A stretch of 64,000 nt of DNA, taken from positions 372,001-436,000 of the forward strand of contig NZ_JAACFS010000004.1 in NCBI RefSeq assembly GCF_029051645.1, written 5' to 3'. The notes beneath the pieces are model-generated. The model was not told where the DNA came from and searched no databases. It was given only the letters and a program-made list of their open reading frames with translations. The position numbers and the translations under genes were made by a program. This document shows positions 3,732-28,948 of this stretch, piece after piece. This DNA is from Bradyrhizobium sp. CSA112 (lineage in GTDB: Bacteria > Pseudomonadota > Alphaproteobacteria > Rhizobiales > Xanthobacteraceae). Position 1 is the first letter of the stretch. Every line of letters begins with the position of its first letter.

Positions 3732-5660
3732 GTGAGCGCTCTGATGAACATGATCCTCCCCACGGCCGTCTCGGCCACCCCCAACGGCACCACGCGCCCG
3801 CAGGTCCGCATCGTCATCGTCGGCCATGTCGATCACGGCAAATCCACTTTGGTCGGACGCCTGCTGCACGAGACCGGCAGCCTGCCCGAAGGCAAGCTGG
3901 AGATGCTGAAAGCGGTCAGCGCGCGGCGCGGCATGCCGTTCGAATGGTCGTTCCTGCTCGATGCGCTGCAGACCGAGCGCGACCAGGGCATCACCATCGA
4001 CACCACGCAAATCCGCTTTCGCACGCGCTCGCGCGACGTCGTGCTGATCGACGCGCCCGGCCATGCCGAATTCCTGCGCAACATGATCACCGGCGCCTCC
4101 CAGGCCGATGGTGCGGTGCTGATCATCGACGCGCTGGAAGGCGTGCGCGACCAGACCCGGCGCCACGGCTATCTGCTGCATCTGCTCGGCATCAAGCAGG
4201 TCGCCATCGTCGTCAACAAGATGGACCGCGTCGATTTCAGCGCCGATCGCTTCAAGGAGATCAGCGACGAGATTTCGGCGCATCTGACCGACCTCGGCGT
4301 GACGCCCTCGGCCGTGGTTCCGATTTCAGCGCGCGACGGCGACGGCGTTGCCGAACACACGGCGCGCATCGCCTGGTACCGGGGACCGACCGTGGTCGAG
4401 GCGCTCGATGCGCTCGAACCGGCCCGGCCGCTGGAGCAGCTCGCGCTGCGGCTGCCGGTACAGGCGATCTACAAGTTCGACGACCGCCGCATCGTTGCGG
4501 GCCGCATCGAGTCCGGACATTTGAGCGCAGGCGACGAAATCGTCATCATGCCCGCCGGCAAGATCGCGAAGATCAAGACCGTCGAGAGCTGGCCGGTGAC
4601 GCCGCTCAAGGGCAGCCACGGCGCCGGCCGCTCGGTCGGCATCACCCTCGACCGTGAACTGTTCATCGAACGTGGCGATGTCATTGCGCACGCCGGCGCG
4701 ACCCCGCGCGACACGCGGCGGATTCGCGCGCGGATCTTCTGGCTGCACGACAAGCCGCTGTCGAAAGGCGACCAGATCCTGATCCGCCTCGGCACGCGCG
4801 AAAGCCGCGCCAGCGTGGTCGCGATCGAAAAGGCGGTCGATCCCGGCGAGCTCTCCAACGAAGAGACCAAGGCGATCGCGCGCAATCATGTCGGCGAAAT
4901 CGATATCTCGCTGGCGCAGCCGATCGCGGCCGACCCCTATCAGGACAATCCGCGCACCGGGCGGCTGGTGATCGAGGTCAACGGCCGCATCGCCGGCGGC
5001 GGCCTCGTGCTGTCGGTCGACGCCGGGCAGCGCGCCGTTCCGATCGACATCGTGCCGGTCGAATCTGCATTGCGTCCCGAAGAACGCTCGGCGCGCTATC
5101 GCCACAACGGCGCGGTGGTCTGGCTGACCGGCCTTCCGGGCTCCGGAAAATCCACGCTCGCGCGCGCGCTTGAGCGCCGGCTGTTCTCGCGCGGCGGCTC
5201 GCCGATCCTGCTCGACGGCGACACGCTGCGCGCGGGTCTCAACGGCGATCTCGGCTTCTCGGCGCAGGACCGCACTGAAAATATCCGCAGGCTGGCGGAA
5301 GTCGCGACCCATCTGGCGCGCAACGGGCACATCGCCGTCGTCGCCGCGGTCTCGCCGTCGGCGGATGATCGCGCCGCGGCACGCCGCATCGCCGACAATT
5401 CTTTCCGCGAGATCTATGTCGCGACGCCGGCCGAAGTCTGTGAGAGCCGCGACCCCAAGGGCCACTACGCCAAGGCGCGCGCCGGCACGCTGCAGGCGTT
5501 CACCGGTATCGGCAATGACTATCAGCCGCCGGCCCGCGCTGAGCTGAGCATCGACACCTCGGCCAAGACGGTTTCGGATGCGACCGACGAGATCGAGCGG
5601 ATGCTGGCCGAGACCGGCATCCTGTTCGACGAACTGGTGGATCTGGCGGCCAATATCTAG
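3732..5660 (+). CDS. cysNC: bifunctional sulfate adenylyltransferase subunit 1 / adenylylsulfate kinase
   Basis: Fusion of the CysN GTPase with APS kinase CysC, the same architecture as rhizobial NodQ. It makes APS with CysD and phosphorylates it to PAPS. The protein has 642 residues from a GTG at 3732 (an ATG at 3744 is the alternative). The GTPase part shows [13 protein letters not shown] (G1, about residues 31-43), DAPGHAEF (G3) and NKMDRVDF (G4), followed by beta-barrel domains. The kinase part begins near residue 455, with Walker [16 protein letters not shown] and then [18 protein letters not shown]. The sulfolipid or Nod-factor role of NodQ is not implied: no nod genes are in view, and the neighbours are primary sulfate assimilation. 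Confidence 0.94.
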
Positions 5661-7983: not shown

Positions 7984-8008
7984 GGAACGTCCGGCGCGGA
8001 TTGCCGTT
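7984..8008 (+). promoter_or_regulatory. EcfG-type promoter for csbD
   Basis: GGAAC at 7984-7988, 16 bases, then CGTT at 8005-8008: an exact match to the general-stress sigma factor consensus of alphaproteobacteria. It lies 32 bp before the CsbD start codon. The EcfG sigma factor itself is encoded at 26361. Confidence 0.8.
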
Positions 8009-8040
8009 GATCGTCATCTCAATTGCTGGAGGAGATGACG

Positions 8041-8241
8041 ATGGACTGGAACAGGGTCGAAGGAAACTGGAAACAGTTCAAGGGCTCCGCGAAGGAGAAG
8101 TGGGGCAAGCTCACCGACGACGATCTCAACGTCATCGAGGGCCGCCGCGAACAACTCGAAGGCAAGCTGCAGCAGCGCTACGGCTTTGCCAAGGACCAGA
8201 TACGCAAGGACGTGGACGACTGGTTCAAGAGCTTGAAGTAG
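8041..8241 (+). CDS. csbD: CsbD family stress protein
   Basis: A 66-residue hydrophilic protein of the CsbD/YjbJ family, MDWNRVEGNWKQFKGSAKEK and so on, with the repeated W-x-Q/K and KxKWG pattern of the family. CsbD proteins are abundant general-stress proteins of unknown biochemical role. The ATG at 8041 is preceded by a strong GGAGGAG at 8028-8034. An exact EcfG-type promoter lies just upstream, so induction by the general stress response is likely. An intrinsic terminator follows 20 bp after the stop, so it is monocistronic. Confidence 0.92.
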   Translation: MDWNRVEGNWKQFKGSAKEKWGKLTDDDLNVIEGRREQLEGKLQQRYGFAKDQIRKDVDDWFKSLK

Positions 8242-8261
8242 GGTCGCGCTTCCCGAACATC

Positions 8262-8290
8262 AAAAGCCCCGGCATCGGCCGGGGCTTTTC
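8262..8290 (+). terminator. intrinsic terminator after csbD
   Basis: AAAAGCCCCGGC pairs with GGCCGGGGCTTTT across a short loop, giving a GC-rich stem with flanking A and T tracts. It could also terminate the convergent small gene at 8306-8458. Confidence 0.85.
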
Positions 8291-8305
8291 GTTTGGGTCG
8301 TGGCC

Positions 8306-8458
8306 CTAGACCGTGATGTATCTCAACAGCGAGATCACGCCCAGAATGATCACGACGACGCGAGCGATCTGCTTGGCGCGGCCGTCGAGCGGCAGGAGGT
8401 TGATGAGATAGAGAACGAGGATAACGACCAGGAACGTGATGAGAATACTGACAAGCAT
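8306..8458 (-). CDS. 50-residue membrane protein, stress-associated
   Basis: A 50-residue hydrophobic protein starting MLVSILITFLVVILVLYLIN, with two predicted membrane segments (residues 2-18 and about 32-46) joined by a short LPLDGRAKQIAR loop. It resembles the small Thivi_2564-like membrane proteins common in proteobacteria, whose function is unknown. The frame is open 34 codons further upstream, but that stretch overlaps the promoter. The ATG at 8458 has GGAGGGGG just ahead on the minus strand. An exact EcfG-type promoter is at 8507-8531, so it is probably a general-stress gene. Confidence 0.8.
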   Translation of the reverse strand: MLVSILITFLVVILVLYLINLLPLDGRAKQIARVVVIILGVISLLRYITV

Positions 8459-8506
8459 GTGGTCCCCCTCCGGCGCTCGCCGAAAATGCGCTGTTAGTGG
8501 TTTGTT

Positions 8507-8531
8507 AACGTGAAACGGCGCCGCGGGTTCC
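8507..8531 (-). promoter_or_regulatory. EcfG-type promoter for the small membrane protein
   Basis: On the minus strand GGAAC (8531-8527), 16 bases, then CGTT (8510-8507), an exact EcfG consensus. It is 48 bp from the start codon at 8458. Confidence 0.78.
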
Positions 8532-8658
8532 AAACGGGGAACTACAAATCTCGTGGGCAAAATCGCAAGCGTTTCAATGCCCCGTAGTACTACCCGGTTG
8601 AAAACTGCCTAAGTTTTTACCGTTGTCCCTCCAAATGGCCGGGCACCTGGGGGGCATC

Positions 8659-10752
8659 ATGTTGAACCGTCTGACCGTATCCGCGCTGCTGAAGACCGTC
8701 ATCCTCGTCACCTCTTTCTGCGTGGTGGTTGGATTTTCGCTCAACGCCTGGGATTCCTGGGGCCGCCTGCAGTCGGCGAGTCGCATCGCAGTGATCGCAG
8801 ATGCCTCCGCGAACATGTTCAAGGCGATGCACAATCTGCGCACCGACCGCTCCACGACCAACCGGCTGCTCAATTCCGATGCGCCGATGGAAGCCGATAT
8901 CGAGAAATATCTGCGCAACATCCGCGACACCGAAATGCCCGCAATGGCCAACGCGCTCGGCCTGCTCAGCGGACTGGAATTCGCGCAGCAGCAGACGCTG
9001 GTGCCCGAGTTCGACCGTCTGCTCAAGTCGATGACCTCGCTGCAAAAGGAATTCTGGGAAGCGATGGGCAAGCCGAAGGCCTCGCGCCGCCCGACGCTGG
9101 CCAAAGAGTATATGGACACGACGACGACGATGCTGGGTACGCTCGACAAGCTTTCCGGGTCGGTTGCCGCCGCCATCAATCACCAGGACGCGACCATCGA
9201 CCAGTTGCTGGCGATCAAGCAGATCGCCTGGCTGTTGCGTAATACCGCGGGCGAAGCGTCGCTGATCGTCGCGATCGGGCTCAACAGCGGCAAGATCACG
9301 CCGGAGGCGAAGCTCGCCTATACGAAATATGCCGGCGGCATCGACGCCGCATGGAGCGCGCTGGAGTTGACGGCCGCGGGGATGCAGTTGCCCCCGGCGA
9401 TTTCCGCCGCCATGGCCGCGACCAAGACCGGCTATTTCGAGCCGTCATATCTCGCCCTGCGCGATCGGCTGTTGACGCAGATCGCGGCCGGCGAGAAGGC
9501 GGAGTTGACCCCGAACCAATGGACTCCGATCACGGTCGGACGTCTCGCTACCGCCGTCGGCGTGGCGGAAGCCGCCCTCGACGCCGCCAGGGACCAAGCC
9601 GCGCTGCTGCGCTCCACCGCCCGGAACTCGCTGGCGATGCAGCTCGTATTGCTGGCCGGCGCGCTGGCGCTCGCGTTCGGCGCCATGGCGATCGTCACCC
9701 GCCGCGCCATCAGGCCGTTGCACACCATGCGCGACGCCATGCTGAAGGTCGCGGCCGGCGACCTTCACGTCGATACCGGCTACGCCGCGCGTCACGACGA
9801 GATCGGCGCGCTCGCCGGCGCGCTGGAGACTTTCAAGCAGCAGGCCGCCGACAAGGCCCGCATCGAGGCGCAGGAGCGCGAGCGCAACGCCGGCGCCACG
9901 GCGCGGCAGCAGGCGATCGAGAGCTATGTCGGCGAGTTCGAGAGCATGGTGCACCAGACGCTCAACCGGCTCGGCGATGCTTCCGGCCAGATGCGGACCA
10001 CCTCGGCCGGGCTGTCGACGATTTCGCGCCAGACCAACGAGCGCGTACAGGTCGCCGAGAAGGCTTCCGGCGAGGCCTCGATGAGCGTCGAGACCGTGGC
10101 TGCGGCTTCCGAACAGCTCAGCGCTTCGATCAACGACATCAGTCAACAGGCGGCGCATGCGGCTGATATCGCCAGCCGCGCGGTCGGCCAGGCGCGCAAC
10201 ACCGACGGCACCGTCCAGGGGCTCGCCCAATCGGCCGGGCGTATCGGCGAAGTCGTCGGCCTGATCAACACCATTGCCGCCCAGACCAACCTGCTTGCGC
10301 TCAACGCGACGATCGAAGCCGCGCGCGCCGGCGAGGCCGGCCGCGGCTTCGCGGTGGTCGCCTCCGAAGTCAAATCGCTGGCGAGCCAGACGGCGAAGGC
10401 GACGGAGGAAATCTCCGAGCAGATCTCGGACATCCAGCGGGTCGCTGGCGAGGCGATCGACGCCATCAAGGGCATCGGCAGCATCATCGGCGAGGTCAAC
10501 GAGGTCGCGACCACGATTGCCGCCGCCGTGCAGCAGCAGGGTGCCGCCACCCAGGAGATCACGCGCTCGACGCAATTCGCGGCGCAGGGCACCAAAAACG
10601 TGTCCGACAACATCACCGGCGTGAAAGCCGATGCGGACGCGGCAGCAGCCGCCGCCGAAGATGTGAAGCAGGCTTCCCAGACGCTGGAAACGCAGAGCCA
10701 GCAACTTGGCAATCAGGTCACCGCGTTCCTCGGCAAGATCCGCGCGGCTTAA
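8659..10752 (+). CDS. methyl-accepting chemotaxis protein
   Basis: Membrane chemoreceptor of 697 residues from the ATG at 8659, preceded by GGGGGG. A first membrane segment lies at about residues 9-28 ([15 protein letters not shown]), followed by a long periplasmic region of roughly 300 residues with no ligand-binding family I can name. A second membrane segment is near 325-345. A HAMP linker follows ([20 protein letters not shown]), then the cytoplasmic signalling domain with the conserved hairpin tip [20 protein letters not shown], which contacts CheA/CheW. Upstream in-frame starts at 8623 (TTG) and 8635 (ATG) are possible. No che genes are nearby, so it is an orphan receptor; the signal is unknown. 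Confidence 0.93.
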
Positions 10753-10757
10753 TCTTC

Positions 10758-10890
10758 AACCTCGCCCCGCTTGCGGGGAGAGGTCGGCGCGTAGCGCCGG
10801 GTGAGGGGGTACAGGTCTCACTACTCTCACAACTCGTGGAGAGAGCCCCTTACCCCCGCCCCTCTCCCCGCAAGAGCGGGGCGAGGGAGA
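10758..10890. repeat. palindromic intergenic repeat (CTCGCCCCGC type)
   Basis: Imperfect inverted repeat: CTCGCCCCGCTTGCGGGGAG at the left end and CTCTCCCCGCAAGAGCGGGG at the right end, with GGTGAGGGGG and CCCCTTACCCCC as inner arms. It fills the gap between the convergent chemoreceptor and DUF2865 genes. Palindromes of this kind are dispersed in Bradyrhizobium genomes. Confidence 0.75.
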
Positions 10891-10930
10891 AGGGGCAATC
10901 CCTTTACCGCCGCGCATCACTCAATCCCTA

Positions 10931-11575
10931 TTACTCCCTCGCCACCACCGGCACACGCCCATACTTGGCGCGGACCTTCTCGGATGCAGGCGAGAAATTC
11001 AGTTCCGCGCCGCGCCTGTCGCCGCTGCGGCCCGCGACCAAGAGACCGTTCTCGCCGGCGACGATGTCGCCTTTGCGTAGCGTCGGATCCTCCTCGATCT
11101 TGACCGGCGCAAGCCCGACCTGGTCCTTGCCGTTGCAGGTGCAGCCAGCCACGAGTTCGTTGCGATAGCGGAAGGCGTTCGGCAATTCCGAGTAGGACTT
11201 GCCGTTGTCGGCGGCGGCGTTGTCGATGCTGCTGCCGTAGAACAAGTTGGTCTCGCTCGCAGGACACAGTTTGTTGCAGGAGGCCGCCCGGCTCGCATTA
11301 TCAGATGCAGGCACCGGGAAATAACGTCCGTCGCAGGTCCGCACGCAATACGCCTGGCTGCCGCCTCCGCCGTAGCGGCCACGCCCCTCACCTCGCGGCG
11401 CGTAAATCTGGCCGTCGTCATTGCCGAACGGCATCTGGATATAGGGCTGATGGCGCGGGCGGCCGAAGCCGCCGAACAGTTGCGAGAAAAAGTCCTGGGC
11501 CTGCGCGGCCGGCGCCAGCACCGCGGCGCACATCAGCGCGGCCGCCCCCCATGCCGTGAGTTTTCCCGATCGCAT
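10931..11575 (-). CDS. DUF2865 domain-containing secreted protein
   Basis: A 214-residue exported protein. From the ATG at 11575 (AGGAGAAG ribosome site ahead) it has a signal peptide, MRSGKLTAWGAAALMCAAVL, ending near AQAQD. The mature part has a Gly/Arg-rich stretch and a cysteine-containing core: YCVRTCDGRYFPVP, CNKLCPA and AGCTCNGKDQVGL, the DUF2865 pattern. The function is unknown; the paired cysteines suggest disulfides in the periplasm. It starts 35 bp after the L,D-transpeptidase stop on the same strand and is probably co-transcribed with it from an EcfG-type promoter. Confidence 0.85.
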   Translation of the reverse strand: MRSGKLTAWGAAALMCAAVLAPAAQAQDFFSQLFGGFGRPRHQPYIQMPFGNDDGQIYAPRGEGRGRYGGGGSQAYCVRTCDGRYFPVPASDNASRAASCNKLCPASETNLFYGSSIDNAAADNGKSYSELPNAFRYRNELVAGCTCNGKDQVGLAPVKIEEDPTLRKGDIVAGENGLLVAGRSGDRRGAELNFSPASEKVRAKYGRVPVVARE

Positions 11576-11610
11576 CAAGCTTCTCCTGTCACGCAAGGCG
11601 ACGCATCCAT

Positions 11611-12378
11611 TCAGTTCACTTGCGGCGCAAGGTTCATCGCCTGGCGGCCCGCGGGTATGGTCGCGACCGGGCGCGGATGCACGCCAACCGGACGAGCTGT
11701 GATGCCGGTCCTGGTATCCCCGCCTCGCGCCATGACCGGCGCGCGCTTCGGCAGCACCACGACCTTGGTGCCGACATCGACCCGGCTGAACAGATCGGTG
11801 ACATCCTCATTGGTCAGGCGGATGCAGCCCGACGAAACGAATTTTCCGATCGTCGAGGGATCGTTGGTGCCGTGAATGCGGTACTGGCTGGTGCCGAGAT
11901 ACATCGCCCGCGCGCCGAGCGGATTGCCGGGACCGCCGGCCATGAAGCGCGGCAAATAGGGCTGGCGCGCGATCATCTGGCTAGGTGGATGCCAGTCCGG
12001 CCATTCCGCCTTGCGGCTGATGGTCTGCACCCCGGACCAGGTAAAGCTTTCGCGGCCGACGCCGACGCCGTACCTGACGGCACGACCCTGTCCGAGCACG
12101 TAGTAGAGCGTGGTGTTGCCGGTATCGATGATGATGGTGCCCGGCGCCTCCGTCGTGCCAAAGGCGACGACGGCGCGGCGAAGCCGTTCGGGCGTTGCCC
12201 CCTCGTCGGACCCGATCACCTCATCCGCGGGATACCCATTCGGCTGGCTCGAAGCGTAGCCGATCGTCTGCGCGTTCGCAGCGCTCGATATCGCTGACGG
12301 CGTCAGCAAGACAGCGCTGACGAGGGCGAACGCGCTTGCCACGCGCGACGAAAGCCGGCGATCGGAGGACTGTGTCAT
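11611..12378 (-). CDS. L,D-transpeptidase (YkuD/ErfK family)
   Basis: Periplasmic enzyme of 255 residues likely to make 3-3 peptidoglycan cross-links or attach proteins to peptidoglycan. It begins MTQSSDRRLSSRVASAFALV with a signal sequence ending near ANAQ. The YkuD domain spans about residues 75-215: GTIIIDTGNTTLYYVLGQG, then YRIHGTNDPSTIGKFVSSGC with the catalytic cysteine in SSGCIRL. The C-terminal 40 residues are low in complexity. The frame is open upstream, but the promoter (GGAAC-N16-CGTT at 12427-12451) fixes the start to the ATG at 12378. Stress induction of cell-wall remodelling is the natural reading. Confidence 0.9.
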   Translation of the reverse strand: MTQSSDRRLSSRVASAFALVSAVLLTPSAISSAANAQTIGYASSQPNGYPADEVIGSDEGATPERLRRAVVAFGTTEAPGTIIIDTGNTTLYYVLGQGRAVRYGVGVGRESFTWSGVQTISRKAEWPDWHPPSQMIARQPYLPRFMAGGPGNPLGARAMYLGTSQYRIHGTNDPSTIGKFVSSGCIRLTNEDVTDLFSRVDVGTKVVVLPKRAPVMARGGDTRTGITARPVGVHPRPVATIPAGRQAMNLAPQVN

Positions 12379-12426
12379 GGGCCTGCCCCGCTGGATGTGT
12401 GCATCCTTGGATGCTCTGCACCAACA

Positions 12427-12451
12427 AACGCGGCTGCGGGCCGGCGGTTCC
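12427..12451 (-). promoter_or_regulatory. EcfG-type promoter for the L,D-transpeptidase
   Basis: Minus-strand GGAAC (12451-12447), 16 bases, CGTT (12430-12427). Exact consensus; the -10 edge is 48 bp from the start codon at 12378. Confidence 0.78.
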
Positions 12452-12510
12452 GTGCGGCCGACGCCGCGCCACAGCGCGCCTAATGCGACACCGCTCACGC
12501 CGGCGCGATT

Positions 12511-12535
12511 GGAACCCGCGCGTTTGCGTCACGTT
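12511..12535 (+). promoter_or_regulatory. EcfG-type promoter for the AI-2E-type permease
   Basis: GGAAC (12511-12515), 16 bases, CGTT (12532-12535). Exact consensus. Transcription would begin near 12543, which rules out the in-frame ATG at 12536 and supports the GTG start at 12605. Confidence 0.78.
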
Positions 12536-12604
12536 ATGATCGCAGTCCGGTTTGCGACGTCGCCTTTGCCGTGTCATCGCCGCTTCGGGCGAGGGAAAGC
12601 CATT

Positions 12605-13792
12605 GTGAGCGTCACTCCCACCAAGCCTTCGCCCACCAAACCTTCGCCCGCCACGCCCTTGGCCGTCAAATCCCCACCGACAAAGCCGTTGCCCCGTGAA
12701 CGCCAGTTCCCCCACGAGCAGGAAGGCACGCCGGTCCCTGACAGCAAGATCGAATTGCCGCCGGTCATCCGCCGCACGGAAGTGGTGGCCATCTGCCTCG
12801 TTGGTCTGCTGATCATCAGCATCATCGCCGTCCTCTATCTTGCCAAGGCGTTCTTTCTGCCGATCACGATGGCCTTCATCGTCGGCACCATGCTCTCGCC
12901 CGCCGCCAATTTCCTGGAGCGCTATCGTATCCCGCGCCCGGTCGCAGCCGTACTGATCGTGGCGGTCGTGAGCGCCGCCTCGGCCTTCATGGTCAGCCTG
13001 ATCGCATCGCCCGCGGTCGAATGGAGCGGCAAGCTTCCTGAGCTGGGGTCGCTGCTGAGGGAGAAGCTGCACGTGTTCGACCGGCCGCTCGCACTCTGGC
13101 AGGAGTTGCAGAGCACGCTCGGCGGCCCCGACACGCTCACGACATTGCATCTGCCGAGGATCGACTGGGTGCAGCCGACCCTGGAGTTCCTGTCGCCGAC
13201 CTTTGCCGAATTCCTGCTGTTCATTGCGACGCTGATCCTGTTCATCGCGAGCTGGCGGGACCTGCGCCGGGCCTTGATCATGAATTTCGGCGAGCGAGCG
13301 TGGCGGTTGCGGGCGCTGCGGATCCTCAACGAGATCGAGGACCGTCTCGGCGGCTACTTGCTGGTAGTGACCATGATCAATGCCGGAGTCGGCATCGCGA
13401 CCGGCCTGATCTGCGCGGTTACGGGCATGCCCAATCCGGCCAGTCTCGGCGCGCTGGCCGCGATCCTGAATTTCATCCCGATCATCGGCCCGGTGGCGAT
13501 GTTTGCCGTCCTGGTCGTGGTCGGCCTCGTCTCGTTCCCGACCTTGAGCGCCGGGCTGCTGGCCCCGGCCATGTTTGCGGTGATGACCTTCCTGGAGGGC
13601 CACTTCCTGACGCCGACGATCGTCGGGCGCCGGCTGGCGCTGAACGCGCTCGCCGTGTTCTTGGCGCTTGCGTTCTGGACCTGGCTGTGGGGGCCGATGG
13701 GCGCGTTTCTGTCGTCGCCGCTTCTGATCGTCGCGCTGATCGTGAAGGAGCATCTAATGCCGTCGGATTCGCCGCAACTGCCGGAGGACTAG
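12605..13792 (+). CDS. AI-2E family transporter (TqsA/PerM type)
   Basis: A polytopic inner-membrane protein of 395 residues in the AI-2E exporter superfamily. Members are linked to export of autoinducer-2 or, in related clades, ion/proton antiport, so the substrate here is open. I choose the GTG at 12605 because GAGGGAAAG precedes it and the promoter lies just upstream. The first 45 residues are hydrophilic and carry a small repeat (TKPSPTKPSP). The rest shows about eight membrane segments, with the family signatures FFLPITMAFIVGTMLSPAAN and, near the C terminus, LEGHFLTPTIVGRRLALN. It is divergent from the L,D-transpeptidase; both have EcfG-type promoters. Confidence 0.88.
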   Translation: MSVTPTKPSPTKPSPATPLAVKSPPTKPLPRERQFPHEQEGTPVPDSKIELPPVIRRTEVVAICLVGLLIISIIAVLYLAKAFFLPITMAFIVGTMLSPAANFLERYRIPRPVAAVLIVAVVSAASAFMVSLIASPAVEWSGKLPELGSLLREKLHVFDRPLALWQELQSTLGGPDTLTTLHLPRIDWVQPTLEFLSPTFAEFLLFIATLILFIASWRDLRRALIMNFGERAWRLRALRILNEIEDRLGGYLLVVTMINAGVGIATGLICAVTGMPNPASLGALAAILNFIPIIGPVAMFAVLVVVGLVSFPTLSAGLLAPAMFAVMTFLEGHFLTPTIVGRRLALNALAVFLALAFWTWLWGPMGAFLSSPLLIVALIVKEHLMPSDSPQLPED

Positions 13793-13809
13793 ACCCGGCA
13801 TCAGACCTG

Positions 13810-13834
13810 GGAACTTCCTATCCGACGGGGCGTT
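13810..13834 (+). promoter_or_regulatory. EcfG-type promoter for the DUF883 protein
   Basis: GGAAC (13810-13814), 16 bases, CGTT (13831-13834). Exact consensus, 36 bp before the start codon at 13871. Confidence 0.8.
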
Positions 13835-13870: not shown

Positions 13871-14230
13871 ATGTCTGACGCCGCAATGAAGAATCTGACG
13901 GACAAAGCGACCTACGAGCGTCTGCAGAAGGACGTGACCGCTGTGAAAAACGATATCGCAGCCCTGACCGAGCAGATCACCGACGCGCTGAGCAGTTTTG
14001 CCGGCACCGCCGGCAAGCAGGCGCGGCATGGCTACAGGCAGGCGCGCGCCAATGCAGAACAGGTGGTCGACGACGTGTCGGAGCGAGGCAGCGCGATGAT
14101 GGACGCAGCCCAGGATGCCGCCTCTTCGATCGAGGAGACGCTGGAAGACGCCATCACGCAGCGTCCACTGGCAACCGTCGCCGTGGCGCTGGGGATCGGC
14201 TTTTTGATCGGTGTGACGTGGCGTAGGTAG
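13871..14230 (+). CDS. DUF883 family (YqjD/ElaB-like) membrane-anchored protein
   Basis: A 119-residue protein with a long charged helical part, likely coiled-coil (residues 5-95, for example TYERLQKDVTAVKNDIAALT), and a single C-terminal membrane anchor, PLATVAVALGIGFLIGVTWRR. This is the YqjD/ElaB layout. In E. coli such proteins are stationary-phase proteins that bind ribosomes at the inner membrane; that role is not proven here. It is directly preceded by an EcfG-type promoter. A YqjE-like gene follows 120 bp later, as in the yqjDE arrangement. Confidence 0.88.
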   Translation: MSDAAMKNLTDKATYERLQKDVTAVKNDIAALTEQITDALSSFAGTAGKQARHGYRQARANAEQVVDDVSERGSAMMDAAQDAASSIEETLEDAITQRPLATVAVALGIGFLIGVTWRR

Positions 14231-14350
14231 GTTTGGCGACGGATCTCGCTTGCGCTGGACAGCCATGCCTTGCATCGCCTCTTGCATTCCCGTGGCGACG
14301 GAGCGCTGCGGCGTGTTTCGTTGACGCGGTTTTCAGATCGAGGCGTGGCC

Positions 14351-14797
14351 ATGTTTCAGCGAATGATCGACGATTTCAAGGAATCGACCGGCACCGCGTT
14401 GCGGCTGACTTCGCTGGCGGCAGCGGCGGCGATGGCATTGCTGGTCACGGCCGCCTTTCTGTGCGCAGCGGCCTTCGTGTTCGTGCTGGAGCGGTACGGT
14501 CCCGTGCAGGCTTGCCTCACCGGTGCCGCCATCTTCTTCGTGGTCGCGCTAATCGCGGCCGGCTGGTACATGGTGCGCAAGAAGCAGATCGAGGCGCGCG
14601 CCAAACAGGCGGCGAAGGCGAAATCCACCGCGCAGGCCGTGTTGTCCGATCCGGTGCTGGTCGCGACCGGCATCCAGGTGATCCGCGCCATCGGCGTCAG
14701 GAAGCTGATTCCGATTCTCGCAATCGGCGGACTGGCGCTGGGATTTCTCGCCAGCCGCGCCAACAGCAGCAGCAGCAGCGAAGCGCCGGCGGAGTAG
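14351..14797 (+). CDS. phage-holin-superfamily III / YqjE-like membrane protein
   Basis: A 148-residue protein starting MFQRMIDDFKESTGTALRLT. Two strong membrane segments follow (about residues 20-42 and 52-74), then a basic Ala/Lys-rich stretch (RKKQIEARAKQAAKAK), a third hydrophobic segment and a Ser-rich tail encoded by an AGC run at 14763-14780. The layout matches the YqjE/holin-superfamily partner of DUF883 proteins. The function is unknown. No separate promoter is evident, so it is likely read with the DUF883 gene. Confidence 0.8.
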   Translation: MFQRMIDDFKESTGTALRLTSLAAAAAMALLVTAAFLCAAAFVFVLERYGPVQACLTGAAIFFVVALIAAGWYMVRKKQIEARAKQAAKAKSTAQAVLSDPVLVATGIQVIRAIGVRKLIPILAIGGLALGFLASRANSSSSSEAPAE

Positions 14798-15042: not shown

Positions 15043-15441
15043 TCAGGTCACGCAACGGCCGGGCTGAAGCAGTTTTGCGACTTCGGTCAACACGCTGACC
15101 GGCGGTTCGCAGGCGATCGCCGTCTTCGATTGGGTAGGCTTGGCAGGCGACGGCGCCGGCGGTGCCGGGCGGTTCCGTGCCTCCTCCTTGACGACGGGAA
15201 CTCGAACGACCACCGACGTATCGTCGAGGCCGACGCTCTTGATGGTAATCGTCTCGGTCTGGCCTGGCGCGGTTCTGAGCTCCGCGCGGTCGGCCTTGGC
15301 GGCGCGGTTGATGTCCGCTGCAGGCGCAGTCGAGGCGAGTTGTCGAAGGCTGGCGAGATCATGACCCGATGCGAACTGGACGGCGCCGAATGTCGCGGAG
15401 ATGGCGAGAGCGGCTAAAAATGCTTTGAAAATCTGTGACAT
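15043..15441 (-). CDS. hypothetical secreted protein
   Basis: A 132-residue protein that I do not recognise. It has an N-terminal signal-like segment (MSQIFKAFLAALAISATFGA, cleavage plausible near AVQFASG), a central beta-rich part (TITIKSVGLDDTSVVVRVPV), a Pro/Ala-rich linker and a C-terminal pair of cysteines (IACEPPVSVLTEVAKLLQPG, then RCVT). Periplasmic location is inferred. It is transcribed alone, facing away from the isomerase gene at 15681, and has no EcfG-type motif upstream. Confidence 0.65.
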   Translation of the reverse strand: MSQIFKAFLAALAISATFGAVQFASGHDLASLRQLASTAPAADINRAAKADRAELRTAPGQTETITIKSVGLDDTSVVVRVPVVKEEARNRPAPPAPSPAKPTQSKTAIACEPPVSVLTEVAKLLQPGRCVT

Positions 15442-25029: not shown

Positions 25030-25063
25030 AACTCTACGCTAGAACGCTTCGATCAGCCAGTGG
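25030..25063. repeat. 30-bp repeat at the 3' end of phyR, copy 2
   Basis: ACTCTACGCTAGAACGCTTC followed by GATCAGCCAGTGG. It covers the last codons of phyR and its 3' flank; the other copy is at 23890-23923. Confidence 0.6.
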
Positions 25064-25859
25064 CCGCCCGCGGCGCGCGATTGCGCGAGTTGCGCTGGAA
25101 GAACAGTGCCTGGCTGGCGACCGCGGAGACCATCGCGGGCTGGAACGGTTTCGAGATCAGGAACGCCGGCTCGGGGCGTTCACCGGTCAGGAAGCGCTCG
25201 GGATAGGCGGTGATGAACACCACGGGCACCTCGAACACGCGCAGCAATTCGTTGACCGCATCCAGGCCCGACGAGCCGTCGGCGAGCTGGATGTCGGCGA
25301 GGATCAGGCCGGGCTTCTTGTTCTTCGCCAGCGCGACCGCATCGGCGTGGGTGCGGGCGACGCCGATCACGTTGTGGCCGAGGTTCTTCACCAGGCTCTC
25401 GAGATCCATCGCGATGAAGGTTTCGTCCTCGATGATCAGGACATCGGTGGCGATTTCCGCCGCCATCTCGCGGCCTGCGGCATCCGTCAACTGGCGGGTC
25501 TCGGCGATGTCGGTGTTGAGAATGAACGCCACCTCCTCCTCGGAGAAGCCTTCGAGCGACAGCAGCAGGAAGGCCTGCCGCGGCAGCGGCGTGATGTTGG
25601 ACAGCCTTCGCTCCGGCGGCAGCGCCAACGTCGCGACATCAGGGTTGTCGTTGAGCGAGACCGAGTTCCAGATCTGGGTGAAGAGCTTGAACAGCCCGGC
25701 GCGCGGGCCATACCGCTCGTCGAGCAACGAGGAATCCTGCAGCAGGGCCTCCAGCATGGCGGCCACGTAGGCATCGCCCGAGGCCTGGTTTCCGGTCAGC
25801 GCACGGGCATAGCGCCGCAACAGCGGCAGATGTTCAGCAACGAGCTGTGATCGGGACAT
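25053..25859 (-). CDS. phyR: PhyR, general stress response anti-anti-sigma regulator
   Basis: A 268-residue protein from the ATG at 25859 (MSRSQLVAEHLPLLRRYARA; AAGGATGGA ahead). Residues 1 to about 130 are the sigma-factor-like domain that mimics EcfG, including TPLPRQAFLLLSLEGFSEEE. The C-terminal receiver carries VLIIEDETFIAMDLESL, the phospho-acceptor Asp in LILADIQLADGSSG, VVFITAYPER and LISKPFQP. When phosphorylated, PhyR family proteins sequester NepR and free EcfG. It is divergent from nepR-ecfG, the classic arrangement. An upstream ATG at 25892 would add 11 residues. Confidence 0.95.
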   Translation of the reverse strand: MSRSQLVAEHLPLLRRYARALTGNQASGDAYVAAMLEALLQDSSLLDERYGPRAGLFKLFTQIWNSVSLNDNPDVATLALPPERRLSNITPLPRQAFLLLSLEGFSEEEVAFILNTDIAETRQLTDAAGREMAAEIATDVLIIEDETFIAMDLESLVKNLGHNVIGVARTHADAVALAKNKKPGLILADIQLADGSSGLDAVNELLRVFEVPVVFITAYPERFLTGERPEPAFLISKPFQPAMVSAVASQALFFQRNSRNRAPRAATG

Positions 25860-26163
25860 CCCCATTCCATCCTTATCTTGGGCCGTATCCATGGCCGTAC
25901 ACTTAGGGTCTCAGCCCGGCGGACGTAACCTTAAGCGCCGCGTCGGGGCGTCAAATTTAGTTTCGGCGGGGGGACCCCGGTTCCCCTGTCACCCCGATTA
26001 CTCGCGGGGGACAAAAAAGTTCCAGAAAAAGTTCCCAGATTTCGGAACCTTCCGCAGATATTCGCATTAGCCTTTGACCTATAACGCGGCGGCCTAGGCC
26101 CAATTTCGAGGTAACCTCTTGAAACCACAGAGACTTAACTCTCGGGGAAGCGTGGATCAGACC
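25860..26163. promoter_or_regulatory. divergent phyR / nepR-ecfG control region
   Basis: About 300 bp between phyR and nepR. It contains one plus-strand GGAAC (26044-26048) and three minus-strand GGAAC motifs (26035-26031, 26023-26019, 25984-25980), the -35 element of EcfG promoters. None has CGTT at the standard 16-base spacing, the nearest on the plus strand being CATT. Self-regulation by EcfG is therefore suggested but not established. Confidence 0.45.
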
Positions 26164-26361
26164 ATGAAGGAAGTAAAAAAGCAGGGCGGGCTAAACGCCG
26201 AGATTCAATCTAGGATCGGCCATCAGCTCCGCGCCATGTACGACGACGTGGTCCGACAAGGCGTGCCGGACCGCTTTGCCGAGTTGATCCGGAAGCTCGA
26301 TGGGCCGGAGGCGGCAGCGGCCCAAATCGACGACACTGCAAAAAATGACGGGAGGGACTAA
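26164..26361 (+). CDS. nepR: NepR anti-sigma factor
   Basis: A small protein of 65 residues from the ATG at 26164 (MKEVKKQGGLNAEIQSRIGH). The conserved NepR core is IGHQLRAMYDDVVRQGVPDR, followed by FAELIRKLDG. NepR holds EcfG inactive until PhyR-P binds it. A TTG at 26119 with GAGGTAAC ahead would add 15 residues, and I cannot exclude that start. The stop overlaps the ecfG start (TAATG), so the pair is translationally coupled, which keeps the antagonists in balance. Confidence 0.88.
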   Translation: MKEVKKQGGLNAEIQSRIGHQLRAMYDDVVRQGVPDRFAELIRKLDGPEAAAAQIDDTAKNDGRD

Positions 26362-26909
26362 TGCCTCTCACAGACTCTCTTCGCGACGACATTTTGGCGT
26401 CGGTACCTAGCCTACGCGCGTTCGCGATCTCGCTCTCAGGCAATGGCGACCGTGCGGACGACCTGGTTCAGGAAACGTTGCTGCGCGCCATTGCCAACAT
26501 CGACTCGTTCCAGCCCGGCTCGAACCTGCCGGCCTGGTTGTTCACCATCCTGCGCAACCTGTTTCGCTCCGACTACAGGAAGCGGCGGCGCGAGGTAGAG
26601 GACGCCGAGGGTAATTACGCGAAAACCCTGAAGACCCAGCCGGCGCAGAATGCGCATCTGGAGTTCGAGGAATTTCGCAACGCGCTCGACAAGCTGCCGC
26701 AAGACCAGCGTGAAGCGTTGATCCTGGTCGGTGCCTCCGGCTTTTCCTACGAGGACGCCGCCGCCATCTGCGGCTGCGCGGTCGGCACCATCAAGAGCCG
26801 CGTCAACCGCGCGCGCTCGAAACTGTCAGCGCTGCTCTATGTCGATGGCGCCGAGGATTTCGGACCCGACGAGACCGTGCGCGCCGTGATCGGCGGCAAT
26901 GGCGGGTGA
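26361..26909 (+). CDS. ecfG: EcfG, general stress ECF sigma factor
   Basis: An ECF sigma-70 of 182 residues. Region 2 shows ADDLVQETLLRAIANIDSFQ and PAWLFTILRNLFRSDYRKRR; region 4 shows LDKLPQDQREALILVGASGF and CGCAVGTIKSRVNRARSKL. It lies in the phyR-nepR-ecfG locus and recognises GGAAC-N16/17-CGTT promoters; five exact matches occur at 8-14 kb in this window. A terminator follows at 26932. Confidence 0.95.
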   Translation: MPLTDSLRDDILASVPSLRAFAISLSGNGDRADDLVQETLLRAIANIDSFQPGSNLPAWLFTILRNLFRSDYRKRRREVEDAEGNYAKTLKTQPAQNAHLEFEEFRNALDKLPQDQREALILVGASGFSYEDAAAICGCAVGTIKSRVNRARSKLSALLYVDGAEDFGPDETVRAVIGGNGG

Positions 26910-27217: not shown

Positions 27218-28948
27218 CTACTTTACCGGCCGCACGGGTGCGGAAATCTGCTCGGTGCGGTCGCGCTCGGTCATGTCGACGACGGTGACCATCGGCGCGG
27301 TGAGTTCGTAGACGTAGCTCACCTCGGTGAAGTAGCGCTTCGCGGTGCCGCCCATCGCTTCCGGCGCGACGCGGTCGAGCAGGATGAGACCGAAATCCGA
27401 GTCTTCCCGCCGCGTCGCCGCGCTGGTGTTGAACTCCTCCCAGCGGAAATGAAAAATCTCGTCCGGCGCCTCGCCGGTGACTTCCCAGTTGGCAACGATG
27501 TGCGGGTGCTTGCCGACCAGCGACAGCCCCTCGTCGGAATGCGAGGCCAGTTCGAAGAACAATAGCGACAGCGACTGCGCGGCGCGCGCGCTGACGGCGA
27601 TGTCCGGGCCGTTGACCACGATGCGGTCGGCATGCGGAATGGCGCGCGACTCGAACAGCCCCCTCAGCTTGACACCTTGCCACTGGCTTTCGCTGAGCAG
27701 CGTCACCACGTTCGACATCGCGTGGATGCGGCCGATCAGCAGTTCGCGCGACACATCCATGTCCGAGCCGTGGCGCAGCGTGCGTGTCACGATCGACTGG
27801 ATCACGGCCAGGATGTTCTTGACCCGGTGGTTGAGCTCGTCGATGACGGCGGTCAATCGCCGCTCGAAACCGATCCGGACCTGGATCTCGCGGCTGAGCC
27901 GCAGATTGTTGTACGCGACATATCCGAACAGGCCGCAGACGATGCCGGTGAGCGCCAAGCCAATGGCCGCCACGATGATCGCCGTCTGCTGCGCGCGCTG
28001 TGCGGCGTTGCTCTTGGCATAGTAGCCGAGCGACCAGTCGCGGCTGCCGAACGTCACCGTCCGCACCACCGACGGCAACGGATCGCCCTGCTTCACCGGC
28101 CGCAGGCTGATGACGCCCTGGTCGTTGGCGACATATTCGTCGCTGGCGTCATCAGGGTCCTTCAGCACCACCGCAAACAGCGAGCGGTCGTCATTGGTCA
28201 GCATCAACGGCGCCAACTCGTAGGAGAAGGTGACGAAGCCCACGGGATCCGCCGTGCCATCCTTCAGAATGGCGGAGGCAAGCACGATGCCGATCGGCCC
28301 GTCCCGCCGCTGCAGTGGAATCGGGTCCGACGCTACCGGCTTGCCGGAGGCCGCCGCCTGCGTCAGCATCGGCCCGATCACCGAATGGCGGTCGTAGGCG
28401 CGACCGGGAAAGCCCAGCGTATCCGCGCTGCGCGGCTCCTGGTCCATCAGGACGTCGAGCGGCCTGTCGATGGTCTTGATGTCGAGCGGCCGGTCGTCGA
28501 AATCGCGGATCGTCGGGTTGGTGAAGCCGGCGCTCTTCAGCTCCGCCTGCGCCGCGACCAGATCGCTCGGCTTGAGACGCGCGATCCAGGACGCGATCAC
28601 GAAATCGGTCTTGAAGGCATAGATCGCCGACCGCAGCGGCTGCAGCATGTTGGCCTTCACCACCGAAGGTGTACGAAATAATCCGGATGCAACGCGCGCG
28701 AGCAATTCACGCTCGGTCAACCGGTCCTGCACCAGGCTGGCGTGAACGTCGATGGCGCGGGACAGCGCAATGCCGTCAAGCGCCAGTTCCTGCTCGTGGA
28801 CGCGATAGGCTGCGAGACCGGAGAGCAAAACTCCGATCAGCGCAATGAAGCCGATAATGAAGCCCAGCCGAACCACTCGCTTACTCAGGAATGACGTGTT
28901 GGCGAAGACGTATTGAAAGCATCTCTGGGTCTGCCGGGGCAGAAGCAC
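27218..28948 (-). CDS. HWE/HisKA_2-type sensor histidine kinase with periplasmic domain
   Basis: A membrane kinase of 576 residues from a GTG at 28948. Hydrophobic segments lie near residues 28-48 and 322-345 and bracket a periplasmic domain that looks CHASE-like (FKTDFVIASWIARLKPSDLV, FPGRAYDRHSVIGPM). The dimerisation/H-box is ELNHRVKNILAVIQSIVTRT, typical of HWE/HisKA_2 kinases. The catalytic part includes LSLLFFELASHSDEGLSLVG. Kinases of this group feed PhyR in other alphaproteobacteria, and its place next to phyR-nepR-ecfG makes it the leading candidate for the input kinase (PhyK role). The signal is unknown. Confidence 0.85.
   Translation of the reverse strand: MLLPRQTQRCFQYVFANTSFLSKRVVRLGFIIGFIALIGVLLSGLAAYRVHEQELALDGIALSRAIDVHASLVQDRLTERELLARVASGLFRTPSVVKANMLQPLRSAIYAFKTDFVIASWIARLKPSDLVAAQAELKSAGFTNPTIRDFDDRPLDIKTIDRPLDVLMDQEPRSADTLGFPGRAYDRHSVIGPMLTQAAASGKPVASDPIPLQRRDGPIGIVLASAILKDGTADPVGFVTFSYELAPLMLTNDDRSLFAVVLKDPDDASDEYVANDQGVISLRPVKQGDPLPSVVRTVTFGSRDWSLGYYAKSNAAQRAQQTAIIVAAIGLALTGIVCGLFGYVAYNNLRLSREIQVRIGFERRLTAVIDELNHRVKNILAVIQSIVTRTLRHGSDMDVSRELLIGRIHAMSNVVTLLSESQWQGVKLRGLFESRAIPHADRIVVNGPDIAVSARAAQSLSLLFFELASHSDEGLSLVGKHPHIVANWEVTGEAPDEIFHFRWEEFNTSAATRREDSDFGLILLDRVAPEAMGGTAKRYFTEVSYVYELTAPMVTVVDMTERDRTEQISAPVRPVK

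Follow-up and report, generated by a model that had tools for sequence, protein, structure and literature searches.

The PhyR–NepR–EcfG partner switch is an established regulatory system (PMC8092242). The available portions of a study of Bradyrhizobium diazoefficiens (PMC8092242) give the EcfG regulon of that species as more than 100 genes, with bll6649 dependent on EcfG, and describe the general stress response (GSR) of Bradyrhizobium as important for soybean infection. In Sphingopyxis, sections of another report (PMC7083833) refer to GGAAC-N16-CGTT as the "conventional GSR promoter motif" and name csbD as a direct GSR target in Sphingopyxis granuli TFA. Here we analyze a stretch of 64,000 nucleotides from Bradyrhizobium sp. 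CSA112 (contig NZ_JAACFS010000004.1, positions 372,001 to 436,000; hereafter the window), which carries a compact block of genes preceded by exact copies of this motif together with genes for PhyR, NepR and EcfG. The best explanation of the block, and a well supported one, is that it very probably represents a conserved EcfG general-stress regulon island. A preliminary description of the sequence had read it in the same way, and the conservation reported below supports that reading.

A scan of the window found the exact motif five times (n = 5), at the five positions given in the preliminary description, and nowhere else in the 64 kb, where that description had excluded only further matches in front of genes. 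The putative EcfG-type promoters are those of csbD (7984..8008, plus strand), of the gene for a small membrane protein of the Thivi_2564 family (8507..8531, minus strand), of the L,D-transpeptidase gene ldt (12427..12451, minus strand), of an AI-2E family transporter gene (ai2e; 12511..12535, plus strand) and of a DUF883 gene (13810..13834, plus strand). Together they span 5.85 kb (5,851 b). All five have the −35 element GGAAC and the −10 element CGTT within the accepted spacing of 16–17, lie on the strand of the gene toward which they are oriented, and stand at promoter distance upstream of its start codon, with 32 nt between motif end and start for csbD, 48 for the Thivi_2564 gene, 48 for ldt, 69 for the AI-2E gene and 36 for the DUF883 gene; the distances previously put at 32–70 bp thus come to 32–69 nt. 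ldt and ai2e are divergent, with their promoters back to back and 59 nt separating the two −35 elements. Dinucleotide shuffles of the window gave a mean of 0.53 exact matches, with fewer than five in every one of the 100 shuffles. When spacers of 15–18 are pooled, the window yields the same five sites where 2.48 are expected; at least five occur in 11 of 100 shuffles. A scan for sigma-70 promoters between 7900 and 14900 found none (0.9 expected), and a terminator scan of the same region found four compared with 4.9 expected.

The evidence that carries the reading comes from relatives of the window. Loci were collected by a scan with the AI-2E protein, and the best 80 of 237 were retained. Of these, 76 carry the name Bradyrhizobium or Tardiphaga and four are metagenome bins with less specific names; contig ends truncate some of the loci. 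Searches by tblastn found ldt in 79 of the 80 loci, duf2865 and duf883 in 77 each, glcB, the Thivi_2564 gene and the Holin-X-like gene (holinX) in 76 each, a chemotaxis gene (mcp) in 50 and csbD in 31. Exact sites with spacers of 16 and 17, respectively, occur in the 350-nt upstream windows of csbD in 28 and 2 of 31 cases, of the Thivi_2564 gene in 60 and 4 of 76, of ai2e in 44 and 8 of 80, and of duf883 in 72 and 4 of 77. For ldt the 17-nt spacer is the commoner one (25 and 46 of 79). Comparison genes in windows of the same size gave 0 and 1 of 74 for glcB, 0 and 1 of 77 for duf2865, and 1 and 1 of 50 for the gene at 15043, and no site of either spacing was found for mcp (0/50) or holinX (0/76). 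Within 250 nt, at least one exact site with either spacer precedes csbD in 30/31 loci, the Thivi_2564 gene in 64/76, ldt in 71/79 and duf883 in 75/77.

Across the 80 loci there are 267 sites with N16 and 80 with N17, versus 2–14 for each spacer of 13–15 and 18–20. The five 250-nt windows make up 2.9% of the strand-bases and contain 292 of the 347 sites with spacers of 16–17, compared with 9 of 117 sites for the twelve control spacers (10–15 and 18–23); 51 of the 347 lie outside the windows of all ten genes scanned. Counted by locus (n = 80), all five genes have their site in 15 loci, four in 20, three in 31, two in 13 and none in one.

Alignments of the upstream regions, dereplicated to 24 of 35 sequences for csbD, 63 of 86 for the Thivi_2564 gene, 56 of 90 for ldt, 59 of 91 for ai2e and 58 of 83 for duf883, indicate that the motif is kept while the spacer drifts. 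In the motif columns the most common base reaches a mean frequency of 0.99 for csbD and 0.97 for the Thivi_2564 gene, ldt and duf883 alike, whereas in the spacer the mean is 0.50 for csbD, 0.46 for the Thivi_2564 gene, 0.50 for ldt, 0.42 for ai2e and 0.58 for duf883. Over all non-motif columns the corresponding values are 0.60, 0.44, 0.58, 0.37 and 0.53, and the nine motif columns supply 9, 8, 5, 5 and 9 of the 12 most conserved columns. The pattern is strong for csbD, the Thivi_2564 gene, ldt and duf883 and weaker for ai2e.

The arrangement extends beyond the genus. In a family sample of 61 genomes, two of them from the genus of the window, an AI-2E relative at E ≤ 1e-50 was present in 34. 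Twenty stretches were examined. Ten of these, with 57–70% identity and from eight other genera, retain the block order in whole or in part, and each has at least one exact site before a block gene. Five of the ten gave no DUF883 match and seven no csbD match, and one (G084) is possibly the same as a Tardiphaga record already among the 80 loci. The other ten stretches have about 35–45% identity. Some of them keep the AI-2E gene beside a DUF883 match with a site (e.g., L187 and L190), and the remainder are without the neighbor, the site, or both.

Several observations weigh against the regulon reading and have to be set beside this conservation. The first group concerns the genome background, and with it the possibility that the five motif copies arose by chance in a genome rich in GC. 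In the 8,797,651 b of the strain's own genome (184 contigs) we counted 127 exact N16 sites, 68 with N17 and 58 with N19, approximately a twofold excess of N16 over N19, the spacer of the same phase. The reversed pattern TTGC-N16-CAAGG occurs 150 times, more often than the motif itself, so that by this control there is no genome-wide excess. A second stretch, C77:46033-53223 (L284), also holds five exact N16 hits, at four places (one of them on both strands) in 7.2 kb, and the pooled-spacer count given above is not extreme either. A comparison of density with the genome background, proposed in the preliminary description, gives a divided answer. The five sites of the block stand against 0.084 expected per 5,851 b (Poisson P(≥5) = 3e-8, uncorrected for the choice of the stretch), while the reversed control and the C77 group show that density alone is not decisive.

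The quality of the sites outside the window was assessed with a simple codon model made for this analysis. Among the 91 classified of the 122 N16 sites outside the window, 41 were promoter-like (one inside a predicted gene), 19 coding and 31 other, the last class probably including missed coding sequence; among 20 of the 58 N19 sites, 5 were promoter-like (4 inside a predicted gene), 12 coding and 3 other. If a site must lie outside predicted genes and have a start codon 5–120 nt downstream, 37 of 91 qualify for N16 versus 1 of 20 for N19. One promoter call, at L016, is doubtful and appears by eye to be a nuoD start. In the C77 group the model assigned four sites to the class "other" and one to a doubtful promoter, and open frames cross those places; the group shows no clear promoter context and is probably due to chance. 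In other parts of the genome, sites with a 16- or 17-nt spacer are found ahead of genes for CsbD, manganese catalase, phasin, DUF892 and AI-2E proteins. As a side observation, the reversed pattern is itself about twice as frequent with N16 as with N17 (73) and N19 (63) in this genome, and the sites listed look diverse; in the 80 loci its count varies widely by spacer, with 22 at N16.

The second group of contrary observations concerns the AI-2E promoter and the limits of the alignments. Only 34 of 80 loci have an exact ai2e site within 250 nt, the motif columns of this site average just 0.77, and an exact copy is present in just 1 of the 12 genomes, discussed below, in which the gene is far from phyR. 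The AI-2E promoter is the weakest of the five and is not general, and taken alone it is less secure. One locus (L101) has no site at all, and of the five genes only ai2e and duf883 were found there. Constraints other than the motif must also act on these upstream regions, because for ldt and ai2e no more than 5 of the 12 best-conserved columns belong to the motif, and because the non-motif columns are themselves rather conserved for csbD, ldt and duf883. Furthermore, the available portions of the Sphingopyxis paper cited above and of a Sphingomonas paper (PMC6599016) do not mention DUF883, the transpeptidase or AI-2E, and CsbD is likewise not mentioned in those of the Sphingomonas paper. On balance, conservation, not count, is what lifts the sites above chance, and it is decisive: motifs kept over drifting spacers in 80 loci and in ten genomes of other genera, together with the spacer controls, count against chance matching for csbD, the Thivi_2564 gene, ldt and duf883. 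We therefore reject chance as the explanation of the block, and consider it extremely improbable.

The regulators themselves are encoded in the same window, as the preliminary description had pointed out for the sigma factor. Domain searches identify PhyR, with sigma-like domains and a receiver, at 25053..25892 (minus strand). The 65-aa anti-sigma factor NepR (26164..26361, plus strand; Pfam NepR, 4.3e-16) adjoins EcfG (26361..26909, plus strand), which is identified by both domain and sequence matches, and nearby lies a CHASE-HWE histidine kinase (27218..28948, minus strand; Pfam HWE_HK 5.5e-23, CHASE 1.5e-5), which is likely to activate PhyR. The locus of phyR, nepR, ecfG and a kinase of the HWE/HisKA_2 type is thus complete. 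A near match to the EcfG-type promoter, GGAAC-N16-CATT with one mismatch, precedes nepR-ecfG at 26044..26068 (plus strand). The same sequence pattern occurs 107–121 nt before nepR in five of eight relative stretches (L297, L298, L299, L301 and L304), all of which have nepR and ecfG; in L302 and L303 GGAAC stands at 107 before nepR, with neither CATT nor CGTT following at that spacing, and both elements are absent there from L300.

EcfG need not be the only sigma factor able to read such sites. GGAAC-like −35 elements are shared among groups of extracytoplasmic function (ECF) sigma factors, and the presence of other ECF sigma factors in the genome belongs with the contrary points above: twelve places match EcfG at E ≤ 1e-5, EcfG included. 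The main user of the five sites could be another ECF sigma factor, one whose −35 element is related. The EcfG sequence, however, has a single place of full identity in the genome, the next ECF factor being 39% identical, and the nearest paralogue adjoins an open reading frame (ORF) that resembles, by eye within its 3.4 kb, a different kind of anti-sigma factor. In the available portions of the Sphingopyxis study, CGTT with a 16-nt spacing is the EcfG type and csbD is EcfG-controlled (PMC7083833). We regard another ECF factor as very unlikely to be the main user, and EcfG as the very probable one.

The proximity of the block to ecfG invites the question of whether linkage to the phyR locus matters. 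Of 60 genomes of the genus, 59 gave a match to PhyR, 59 a match to the AI-2E protein and 58 a match to both; in 39 of these 58 they are on one contig and in 19 on different contigs. The distance between them is within 14 kb in 24 of the 58, within 72 kb in 27, and at least 0.95 Mb (linear coordinates) in 12. In these 12, exact sites persist before csbD in 6/6 (the gene was not found in the other six), the Thivi_2564 gene in 11/11, ldt in 11/12 and duf883 in 12/12. Because these four sites persist at such distances, linkage to the phyR locus is not needed, and we reject a requirement for it, the AI-2E promoter being the exception among the five. These counts, and the mcp gene without an EcfG site inside the block, favor an account in which the block reflects ancestral gene order, its closeness to ecfG is without functional significance, and promoters were gained or retained gene by gene. 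The close linkage in 24 of 58 genomes speaks against that account, with the 19 genomes in which the two lie on different contigs to be kept in mind. We find it rather likely, and it is compatible with the regulon reading since it touches only the clustering.

If the block is an EcfG regulon island, the established partner switch would operate on it as follows; the motif and its conservation are what point to this action at the five promoters. Stress would lead, through an HWE kinase, to phosphorylation of PhyR; phosphorylated PhyR would capture NepR and free EcfG; and the freed EcfG would direct RNA polymerase to the five GGAAC-N16-CGTT promoters. Transcription would then start for csbD, the Thivi_2564 gene, ldt (with the DUF2865 gene), the AI-2E permease gene and the DUF883 gene (with the Holin-X-like gene). 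The products probably strengthen the envelope and quiet the cell, with the roles of individual genes speculative. By analogy, the L,D-transpeptidase may form 3-3 peptidoglycan cross-links and so reinforce the envelope, and the membrane-anchored DUF883 protein, by analogy with E. coli, may have a ribosome-related or membrane-protecting role. The preliminary description held that the regulon gives roles to genes of this kind; it does give them a stress context, but a biochemical role is not given by regulation.

The genes of the block are as follows. The 66-aa CsbD-like protein (8041..8241, plus strand; ATG 8041) matches Pfam CsbD at 2.9e-23 and scores 97.1 bits with NCBIfam PRK10428, under the cut-off of 113. 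The 50-residue membrane protein previously noted on the minus strand (8306..8458; ATG 8458) belongs to the Thivi_2564 family (NCBIfam NF041949, 2.4e-15, above cut-off), and a Pfam search with it matched no family. The mcp gene for a methyl-accepting chemotaxis protein (8623..10752, plus strand), with no EcfG site of its own in 50 loci, was detected in only 50 of the 80 loci and therefore looks like a variable passenger of the island. The YkuD-type L,D-transpeptidase gene ldt (11611..12378, minus strand; ATG 12378; Pfam YkuD 5e-25) is followed on its 3′ side by the DUF2865 gene (10931..11596, minus strand; Pfam DUF2865 2.2e-35). The AI-2E family transporter (12605..13792, plus strand; Pfam AI-2E_transport 3.3e-36) is assigned a GTG start at 12605, which we prefer because the first ATG in frame after the site, at 12536, abuts the −10 CGTT and would be unusable if the site is used. 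The 119-aa DUF883 (ElaB/YqjD-like) protein (13871..14230, plus strand; ATG 13871) passes the cut-off only for the Pfam DUF883 N-terminal domain (3.4e-7; 30.5 vs 25.4), and its match to the NCBIfam ElaB model PRK10404 (1.8e-6, 28.4 bits) is far under the cut-off of 139. On its 3′ side is the gene for a Holin-X-like membrane protein (14348..14797, plus strand; start uncertain), with a match to Pfam Phage_holin_3_6 (5.7e-4) below the cut-off. Because the DUF2865 and Holin-X-like genes follow closely and are nearly always without sites of their own, the five promoters probably serve seven genes, the former being probably on the ldt transcript and the latter on the DUF883 transcript; such read-through operons are speculative.

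A second cluster of sites is located on contig C140, where positions 3887–38121 (L281 and L282) contain eight exact N16 and two N17 sites in 34 kb (P(≥8) = 6e-8 for N16, post hoc). The sites precede an ORF resembling an FAD oxidoreductase (by eye), a DUF892 gene (N17), a Crp-type regulator, a CsbD gene, an unassigned ORF (N17), a gene for an AI-2E-GAF protein, a second CsbD gene, a gene for a manganese catalase-DUF892 protein, a gene for a 72-aa protein and a phasin gene. The first of the two CsbD proteins is 70% identical to that of the window. The AI-2E-GAF protein, encoded from L281:15818 behind its EcfG-type site, combines the transporter domain and a C-terminal GAF domain in at least 765 aa. 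The 72-aa protein was considered as a DUF883 relative and dropped, having no Pfam match and no BLASTP similarity to the DUF883 protein of the window. Separately, two or three more EcfG-type sites are grouped close to small ORFs on the downstream side of the island in one relative (L048:17296-17887), with similar groups in L053, L054, L063, L070, L071, L077, L081, L097 and L106, a subset of the Bradyrhizobium loci; the ORFs were inspected in L048. A broader and rather doubtful speculation treats the block as a stress module passed on by inheritance, made of ancestral, separately promoted EcfG units near the sigma locus in much of the genus, and the C140 cluster as a larger sister module built partly from the same families; on this view CsbD and the AI-2E permease would be functional partners that recur together in the general stress response.

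These comparisons tie the Thivi_2564 gene, the DUF883 gene, the AI-2E permease gene and, by position, the DUF2865 and Holin-X-like genes to the general stress response in Bradyrhizobium and its relatives on comparative evidence that goes beyond a motif match alone, and they yield a list of candidate promoters, whose spacing of 16 or 17 depends on the gene, as well as a second cluster. No description of this block was found in the literature covered, which comprised accessible parts of papers in the open PubMed Central (PMC) subset, and newness of the gene assignments is not established by that coverage.

Three described systems can be compared with the block. According to the available portions of PMC6389858, E. 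coli produces neither ElaB nor YqjD when RpoS is absent, and YqjD is a protein that binds to ribosomes. The window likewise appears to encode a small membrane protein of the DUF883 kind under a stress sigma factor, the label being taken from the NCBIfam ElaB hit; the sigma factor is a different one and the ElaB match is weak, far below cut-off. The Holin-X-like neighbor of the DUF883 gene may have a parallel in the yqjDE pair. CsbD of Bacillus subtilis is linked to sigma-B and YjbJ of E. coli to RpoS; both have the CsbD domain in common with the protein of the window, but the regulator differs. The closest systems are the alphaproteobacterial EcfG regulons of S. granuli TFA and B. diazoefficiens, which, in the portions of the two reports cited at the outset, have the same motif and the same regulators, with csbD a target in S. 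granuli. The island is a well-conserved system of this ordinary, known kind and not a new kind; compared with those regulons, the block concentrates five promoters in 6 kb, in a cluster kept across genera.

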